From an uncultured Sulfolobales archaeon (lineage in GTDB: Archaea > Thermoproteota > Thermoprotei_A > Sulfolobales > NBVN01), in contig CALKCU010000046.1 in the NCBI GenBank assembly GCA_938083005.1, positions 1-32,956 of the forward strand: DNA of 32,956 nt. The letters are read 5' to 3'. Below are positions 8,209-10,965 of this stretch, in pieces. Position numbers and translations under genes: made by a program. Each line of letters begins with the position of its first letter. Position 1 is the stretch's first letter. Under the pieces are notes generated by a model. That model ran no database searches. It saw nothing but the letters and a program-made list of their open reading frames with translations, and had not been told where the DNA came from.

Positions 8209-8373
8209 TCATCCGGTCGAAGAGCTTAGGAGATCCCTAACGCATAGCTCGACGCACTTACGGAAGGACTCCCCGGAGAAGCCCGCCTCGGCACACCTCT
8301 CTCTGCACACCCTAACCACGTGGCCTCTAACGTATGAGTCGGAGCACGTACGCAACACCAACAGCTCTCCCAC
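8209..8373 (-). CDS. Twin-CX3C mini-protein (54 codons or shorter), unrecognised
   Basis: A short open frame in the gap upstream of the importer operon reads MGELLVLRTCSDSYVRG, then VVRVCRERCAEAGF and ESFRKCVELCVRDLL, and stops with TGA. Its last four cysteines form CX3C-X12-CX3C (residues 23, 27, 40, 44), with one more at 10. The twin CX3C spacing suggests a disulfide- or metal-stabilised helical hairpin; I know no archaeal family with it. GGAGG lies 2 nt before the GTG at 8373. A TATA-like run at 8381-8390 would instead favour a start at TTG 8361, GTG 8358 or TTG 8355, all in frame and all keeping the five cysteines. Function unknown. Confidence 0.5.
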   Translation of the reverse strand: MGELLVLRTCSDSYVRGHVVRVCRERCAEAGFSGESFRKCVELCVRDLLSSSTG

Positions 8374-8380
8374 TCCCTCC

Positions 8381-8390
8381 TAAAATACAA
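8381..8390 (-). promoter_or_regulatory. TATA-like element before the twin-CX3C mini-gene
   Basis: The minus strand reads TTGTATTTTA in GC-rich DNA. It predicts a transcript start near 8360, inside the longest version of the mini-gene but just before its downstream in-frame starts. Confidence 0.4.
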
Positions 8391-9404: not shown

Positions 9405-9590
9405 TTAGGCCCTCTTCTTGCTCCCCATGAAGACGTATACCGTGGTGGCGCAGGCCGGGCAGGTGCCCCTAATAGCCCTCCTGCCGTTCTTCAGTATTAC
9501 CTCCTCGGGGCTCTTCAGCTCCTTCTTCGCTCTGCACTTCACGCAGAAGCCGGTTACAACTCCCTTGACGGGTCCCACGACTTGCGCCAT
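9405..9590 (-). CDS. DUF5679 zinc-ribbon protein
   Basis: This 61-aa protein has two CxxC knuckles (GFCVKC at about 15-19 and GTCPAC at about 43-47) separated by the typical DUF5679 centre SPEEVILKNGRRAIRG. The cysteines should hold one zinc. The domain is small and uncharacterised, and resembles zinc-binding repeats of topoisomerase I tails; DNA or RNA binding is a guess. It has its own TATA box at 9621-9630, 36 nt before the ATG, and terminator-like T runs after the stop, so it looks monocistronic. Confidence 0.88.
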   Translation of the reverse strand: MAQVVGPVKGVVTGFCVKCRAKKELKSPEEVILKNGRRAIRGTCPACATTVYVFMGSKKRA

Positions 9591-9620
9591 GGGTTTCTCC
9601 CGCGCGCTGATCCCATGGGA

Positions 9621-9630: not shown

Positions 9631-9680
9631 TTTCTTCTACGCGTGAGACGCTAAGCCTCGGTGGGTCCCAGCCGGCACGT

Positions 9681-9690
9681 TATATTTATA
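9681..9690 (+). promoter_or_regulatory. TATA box for the S-adenosylhomocysteinase gene
   Basis: TATATTTATA is centred about 38 nt before the GTG at 9724. It lies inside the longest possible reading frame (GTG at 9661), which argues that the real start is the later GTG. Confidence 0.7.
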
Positions 9691-9723
9691 CAGCTAGTCC
9701 CGGAGGTAGCTGGGGCAGATGGA

Positions 9724-10965
9724 GTGTTTAAGGTGAAGGACGCTACCCTCGCTCCCCAGGGGAGAGTTGCGATAGAGTGGGCCGAGAGAAACATGCCCGT
9801 CCTGGCTAGGATAGCGAGGGAGTTTAGAGAGACCAGGCCGCTGACCGGGGTTAGAGTGGGGGCCGTTCTCCACGTGACGAAGGAGACCGCCGTGCTCGTC
9901 AGGGCTCTGATGGCCAGCGGTGCCGATGTCTGGCTAGCAGCTTCGAACCCCCTCTCGACGCAGGACGATGTGGCGGCAGCCCTCGTCGAAGAGGGCGTCA
10001 ACGTCTTCGCCTGGCGGGGCGAGACCGAGGAGGAGTACTTCTGGTGCATAGAGCGGGTGGCGCGATCGGGTCCGGACGTGGTCATAGACGACGGAGGAGA
10101 CCTCCACGTCTTCCTCCACGAGAGGGCGCCCGAGATCGCTGAGAGGGTAGTTGGCGGGACTGAAGAGACTACTACCGGGGTCCTGAGGCTCAGAGCTCTC
10201 GAGAGAGCCGGGAGGCTCAGGTACCCGGTGATAGCGGTGAACGACTCTATGACCAAGTATCTCTTCGACAACAGGTACGGGACCGGCCAGTCTACGCTAG
10301 ACGGGATAATGAGGGCCACGAACGTGCTCATTGCGGGGAAGGTCGCCGTCGTGGCTGGCTACGGGTGGGTCGGCAGAGGGATAGCCGTGCGCGCCAAGGG
10401 CTTGGGTGCGAGGGTGGTCGTTACCGAGGTGGACCCTGTGAGGGCCCTCGAGGCGGTGATGGACGGCTTCGATGTGATGCCCATGTCCGAGGCAGCGAAG
10501 ATCGGGGACATATTCATCACGGCGACCGGAAACATAGACGTCATAAGGGCCGAGCACGTCCTCGCGATGAAGGACGGAGCCATACTCGCGAACGCCGGTC
10601 ACTTCAACGTAGAGATCAGCGTCCAGGAGGTGGAGAGCGTTGCGGTGTCGAAGAGGGTCGTTAGGAGCAACGTGACTGAGTACCTGCTTCCCAACGGGAG
10701 GAGGGTCTATCTCCTGGCCGAGGGTCGGCTGGTGAACCTGGTGGCCGCCGAGGGGCACCCCAGCGAGGTCATGGACCTGAGCTTCGCGAACCAGGCCCTA
10801 GCCGTGAAGCACTTGGTGGAGAACCGGGGCAAGCTGGGGGTGGGAGTCTACAAGCTGCCCGACGAGATAGACCGCGCTATAGCTAGAGTGAAGCTGGAGA
10901 CTATGGGCATAAGGATAGACTCTCTGACCGAGAAGCAGATCGAGTACTTAAGGTCTTGGAAGTAG
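9724..10965 (+). CDS. ahcY: S-adenosyl-L-homocysteine hydrolase (adenosylhomocysteinase)
   Basis: This cytosolic enzyme splits S-adenosylhomocysteine to adenosine and homocysteine, keeping methyltransferases free of product inhibition. Seen motifs: [58 protein letters not shown] (catalytic Lys and Asp region), then the NAD-binding GYGWVGRG, and a C-terminal block [16 protein letters not shown] start it at GTG 9724 (413 aa, protein [14 protein letters not shown]), because archaeal homologues begin at this point and a strong TATA box sits at 9681-9690. Methyltransferases in the window, such as the NOL1-type enzyme at 20420, would supply its substrate. Confidence 0.96.

Follow-up and report, generated by a model that had tools for sequence, protein, structure and literature searches.

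A four-cysteine mini-protein gene and its boundaries

The window, a 32,956-nucleotide stretch of DNA from an uncultured Sulfolobales archaeon, carries on its reverse strand a very short gene of a four-cysteine family, referred to here as family 1 (Table 1). The frame at 8209-8373 (-), which translates as MGELLVLRTCSDSYVRGHVVRVCRERCAEAGFSGESFRKCVELCVRDLLSSSTG, encodes five cysteines, four of them arranged as CX3C-X12-CX3C, just as a sequence-only reading of this DNA had noted. That reading called the motif very unusual for an archaeal intracellular peptide. It is indeed the sole CX3C-X10-16-CX3C match across the six frames of the window, and it is conserved, but 4 of 100 first-order Markov shuffles also contain one, and the motif by itself is only moderately unusual. 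It is conservation, not the motif alone, that marks the frame as real, far beyond chance. The fifth cysteine (C10) is peculiar to the window's species among the aligned members of its genus.

Translation probably begins at GTG 8358, giving a 49-amino-acid product, rather than at the listed GTG 8373. The GGAGG sequence, taken earlier for a Shine-Dalgarno-like element, sits only ~2 nt from GTG 8373, which makes it a poor one. In a relative from the same genus (L003, genome G005), a TATA-like box lies 29 nt before a GTG that aligns with 8358, and in two other relatives (L002 and L007) such boxes precede the start by 30 and 27 nt. These distances lead us to infer a leaderless transcript for the window gene. 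Many other relatives, which use TTG or GTG, have no box so placed relative to the start chosen for them. One family 1 frame (L006, G004) has no ATG, GTG, or TTG before its core, reflecting an unusual start or a sequence error, and a second copy in another genome (L093, G066) lacks one CX3C through a small in-frame deletion and is probably degenerate.

Table 1. Coordinates of the mini-protein gene and its features in the window.
Feature	Position	Strand	Basis and remarks
Family 1 (four-cysteine) mini-protein gene, 49 aa, probable start	8209..8358	-	GTG start 8358, TGA stop 8209-8211; ORF and homologues; start from L003/L002 alignment and TATA distance
TATA-like box TATTTTA, putative leaderless promoter	8381..8387	-	29 nt upstream of GTG 8358; read in sequence
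Predicted helix 1, residues 12-30, with His18, first CX3C, and Arg24	8284..8340	-	AlphaFold2 model
Predicted helix 2, residues 35-52, with second CX3C	8218..8271	-	AlphaFold2 model
His18, invariant	8320..8322	-	Alignment of 54 homologues
First CX3C: Cys23 (8305-8307), Arg24, Cys27 (8293-8295)	8293..8307	-	Alignment; codons read in sequence
Second CX3C: Cys40 (8254-8256), Cys44 (8242-8244)	8242..8256	-	Alignment of 54 homologues

The neighborhood of the gene changes between genera, and no part of it is universal. A class-II amidotransferase gene lies upstream in all seven genomes of the window's genus. An oligopeptide importer follows the mini-protein gene in four of these seven, window included, and one other contig ends within ~2 kb; with the importer after the gene in just 3 of 6 genus relatives, the peptide-importer setting named in the sequence-only reading is incidental. 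In other genera of the family, genes for DNA polymerase B and a DnaG-like protein (named by eye from sequence) are close by, and outside these genera the neighbors are different again. Elsewhere in the window, a small gene at 9407-9592 (-) encodes a zinc-ribbon-like sequence, read by eye, that begins MAQVVGPVKGVVTGFCVKCRAK.

Conservation of family 1 and a six-cysteine sister family

A search of 60 relatives gave matches in 43 at E values up to 1, mostly strong and most at 1e-8 or better. A profile search over 214 genomes of the order recovered 55 clear family 1 members, all with the frame kept; tallied from the table of this search, they occur in 29 of the 31 genomes of the window's own family, with 16 more in family f2, 4 in f3, 2 in f4, and 4 in f5. 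Outside the order, 398 sampled genomes from the phylum yielded no convincing member. A DNA pattern scan of genomes from 84,980 species found 32 loci, all in archaeal records labeled Desulfurococcales, Desulfurococcaceae, Sulfolobales, Zestosphaera, Ignisphaera, Pyrodictiaceae, or Thermoprotei/Thermoproteota. The same pattern found no locus in viral contigs; a phage or plasmid origin was rejected, as viral contigs, phages, and plasmids were all without a match.

Across 54 aligned family 1 sequences, H18, C23, R24, C27, C40, and C44 are invariant, and the spacer between the two CX3C pairs is X12 in 49 and X13 in 5. Among homologues, the cysteine codon is freely TGT or TGC, with the residue itself unchanged. 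In pairs with unsaturated synonymous change, omega ranges from 0.11 (L020/L021) to 0.25 (window/L004), indicative of purifying selection; deeper pairs are saturated and uninformative for omega. The proposal of a real mini-protein, for which frameshifts or cysteine loss in relatives would have been damaging, is thus upheld by homologues that keep both the frame and the four cysteines. Family 1 is a real, strongly conserved gene in heat-loving archaea. Its product has a neutral or negative net charge in most members, which argues against a nucleic-acid-binding or antimicrobial role.

A second family, CX3CX3C-X~10-CX3CX3C, was reached through weak profile matches of family 1; profile searches took the place of a raw six-cysteine DNA pattern, whose matches were dominated by low-complexity sequence. 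All six cysteines are invariant in 16 aligned sequences, and the full pattern is kept in 44 of 46 inspected, most with an X10 loop. Of the 31 genomes in the window's family, 30 carry this sister family, which is also present in other families of the order; some of the matches to its profile are cross-hits to family 1. The window's genome has such a gene (L197, G000:C56:6428-6547 +), located outside the window. A profile-profile comparison (hhalign) of the two families gave 91% probability (E = 1.1e-6), which suggests common ancestry. They share genomes, a related profile, and a predicted hairpin fold (core pLDDT 93 to 94 in AlphaFold2 models of the sister family), but the six-cysteine proteins have a third CX3C rung, a shorter loop (~10), and no invariant His or Arg.

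Members of the sister family either stand alone or are fused to a ~70-amino-acid N-terminal domain. The hairpin, with six cysteines or nearly so, sits C-terminal to such a domain at L176, L178, L203, L206, L239, L253, and L258; these fused loci come from relatives of Ignisphaera and from several other families, and the domain has no significant Pfam match. At L184, L190, L191, and L199, in several genera, the six-cysteine gene has a neighbor resembling S-adenosylhomocysteine hydrolase; the window has a gene of this kind (9661-10965) ~1.3 kb from the four-cysteine gene.

Family 1 has no match above the curated cutoff in Pfam or NCBIfam and no convincing match in PADLOC, PHROGs, or PDB sequences; the best PHROG match for these proteins (4e-4) is to families without function. 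No description of such archaeal proteins was found in the literature searched. With no convincing match in these databases, both families look undescribed, and annotation easily misses such tiny genes.

A predicted hairpin and the state of its cysteines

An AlphaFold2 model built from 29 sequences predicts a helical hairpin, with a mean pLDDT of 76 and values above 90 in most of the core. Foldseek matches of this model in the PDB were not significant (all E values 0.68 or more); they were led by vicilin-buried peptide 8 (VBP-8), cashew and walnut vicilin leader peptides, Luffin P1, and BWI-2c, with Tim9-Tim10 lower among them.

How would the cysteines be used in such a hairpin? Additional cysteines in the 54 family 1 members provide one clue: 36 members have none before or after the core, 13 have one on both sides, 4 have only the first, and 1 has only the second, meaning that a C-terminal extra cysteine is accompanied by an N-terminal one in 13 of 14 cases. 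The total is even in 49 of the 54. In f4 members, the N-terminal extra cysteine is found at -7 rather than -12, with no change in the position of the C-terminal one (+8). The six-cysteine state of family 1 needs two changes on the tree, indicating at least two paired gains and not 13 independent ones; the co-occurrence therefore rests on as few as two gains, and a Fisher p value overstates its independence. The window's genome also encodes a protein disulfide oxidoreductase, above the curated cutoff, and disulfides are reported to abound universally in Crenarchaea (PMC3177088). Together, these observations favor disulfides over metal.

Metal binding is nevertheless the leading alternative, possible although unlikely: Zn(II) or Cu(I) would be bound by the four thiolates, perhaps with His18, and a pair of hairpins might assemble into a four-helix bundle like that of copper storage proteins. 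Helical CX3C pairs are able to bind Cu(I) or Zn. In Csp3, Cu(I) sites of choice are CXXXC pairs on helices (PMC5519932), the invariance of His18 alongside all four cysteines is expected of a metal site too, and the six-cysteine sister family offers more thiols per hairpin. Against this, no Pfam metal-storage family was matched at E values up to 1, extra cysteines come as one-before, one-after pairs with even totals, as disulfides would give, and the genome has the oxidoreductase. Moreover, the spacing equals that of BWI-2c, a CX3C-X12-CX3C peptide with disulfides Cys11-Cys32 and Cys15-Cys28 (PMC7191063).

We favor, with moderate confidence, a cytosolic two-helix hairpin stapled by disulfides, expressed from a probably leaderless gene and docking on a partner through a face marked by His18 and Arg24. 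In this proposal, the conserved gene would yield, probably from a leaderless transcript, a 49-amino-acid cytosolic protein that folds as an antiparallel hairpin with its CX3C pairs facing each other. The protein disulfide oxidoreductase would presumably oxidize Cys23-Cys44 and Cys27-Cys40, and the two staples would hold the hairpin rigid and keep it stable at high temperature. On helix 1, the invariant His18 and Arg24 may mark a binding face for a partner protein, so that the hairpin would act as a small adaptor or regulator and not as an enzyme. Family 1 would be one branch of a superfamily that includes the six-cysteine hairpin. Disulfides, cytosolic location, and partner binding are all inferred. 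Since no gene context is universal, only a general mechanism is proposed, that of a rigid stapled binding module.

One gene context might point to a more specific role. In eight genomes outside the window's genus (L037, L038, and L041-L046), a gene for an XRE-type HTH protein lies 31 to 60 nt downstream on the same strand, and its product has a conserved N-terminal Cys and a C-terminal CxxC. The hairpin could then be a redox switch whose disulfides open and close with the redox state of the cytosol, controlling the HTH protein, whose gene lies immediately downstream in most of the family's genera. This link, however, is missing from the window's genus and from other families, so a redox switch cannot be the general function, and two facing staples are better suited to stability than to switching. 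We consider this role improbable.

A CCCC zinc finger that binds DNA or RNA is less probable still. C-X3-C-X12-C-X3-C follows the spacing of a C2H2 finger, Cys replacing His, and conserved aromatic positions add to the resemblance. The classical C2H2-type zinc finger has a beta-beta-alpha fold around its metal, whereas the family 1 model consists of two long helices and no strand. The mostly neutral or negative charge, the X13 spacer in five members, and the lack of any classical zinc-finger family above its cutoff also speak against it.

Comparison with known hairpin proteins

The predicted hairpin is a familiar type of fold found in a new context. If the models hold, the alpha-hairpin of plant peptides and mitochondrial Tims is also found in hyperthermophilic archaea, where it is widely kept and without a signal peptide. 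It offers a compact, testable case for cytosolic disulfide use at high temperature, and such hairpins could serve as heat-stable stapled scaffolds.

The mitochondrial small Tims (Tim8/9/10/12/13) also carry a twin CX3C on a helical hairpin. We see almost no chance that family 1 is a distant homologue or forerunner of these chaperones, even though Tim10 chains are the sole PDB sequence-profile matches (E values of 1.3 to 1.4) and zf-Tim10_DDP draws more members than any other Pfam family (7 of 29, with a best E value of 0.0064). Profile-profile comparison, made with four human small Tims, gave only 2 to 3% probability, compared with the 91% for the archaeal sister family, and on this comparison homology was rejected despite Tim10 being the weak best sequence match; the caution that the likeness is one of spacing, not descent, was justified. 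Even the spacing differs, with loops of X14-16 in the four human Tims versus X12 here. Long helices flank the Tim motif, whereas the archaeal protein, of ~49 amino acids with predicted helices of 19 and 18 residues, has none on either side of it, and family 1 was found only in a few hyperthermophile families. Four-cysteine and six-cysteine hairpins do occur together in nearly every genome of the window's family. They might be partner subunits of a small-Tim-like, ATP-independent cytosolic chaperone, folded by the protein disulfide oxidoreductase as a convergent prokaryotic counterpart of Tim9-Tim10, but we regard this as very unlikely.

The bacterial copper storage proteins Csp1 and Csp3 resemble the archaeal proteins in having CXXXC pairs on helices. 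Csps have 13 to 18 cysteines and form a four-helix bundle, whereas the archaeal proteins have 4 to 6 cysteines and two predicted helices; family 1 showed neither a Pfam match to Csps nor a four-helix bundle with 13 or more cysteines.

The closest likeness in motif is to the plant alpha-hairpinins, defined by the motifs CX3CX4-20CX3C (4C) and CX3CX3CX4-20CX3CX3C (6C) (PMC11591084). Both are matched by the archaeal families, 4C as in BWI-2c, Luffin P1, VBP-8, and EcAMP1, and 6C as in nigellin-1.1; BWI-2c shares even the X12 spacing of family 1. The helix-loop-helix hairpin of these peptides is predicted for both archaeal families, and alpha-hairpinins are among the top fold matches. Their C1-C4 and C2-C3 disulfide pairing may apply to family 1 as well, as the paired extra cysteines indirectly suggest. 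By sequence, family 1 matches none of them in the PDB; the sister family has nigellin-1.1 as its best match (E = 0.042 only), and by fold it comes second. The settings also differ: alpha-hairpinins are seed or defense peptides of plants, whereas the archaeal proteins are encoded by stand-alone genes, have an invariant His and Arg, lack a conserved loop Arg, and are near neutral in charge. As there is no significant similarity to alpha-hairpinins, convergence is the simplest reading, and the likeness of the archaeal hairpins to both plant alpha-hairpinins and mitochondrial Tims is probably convergent.
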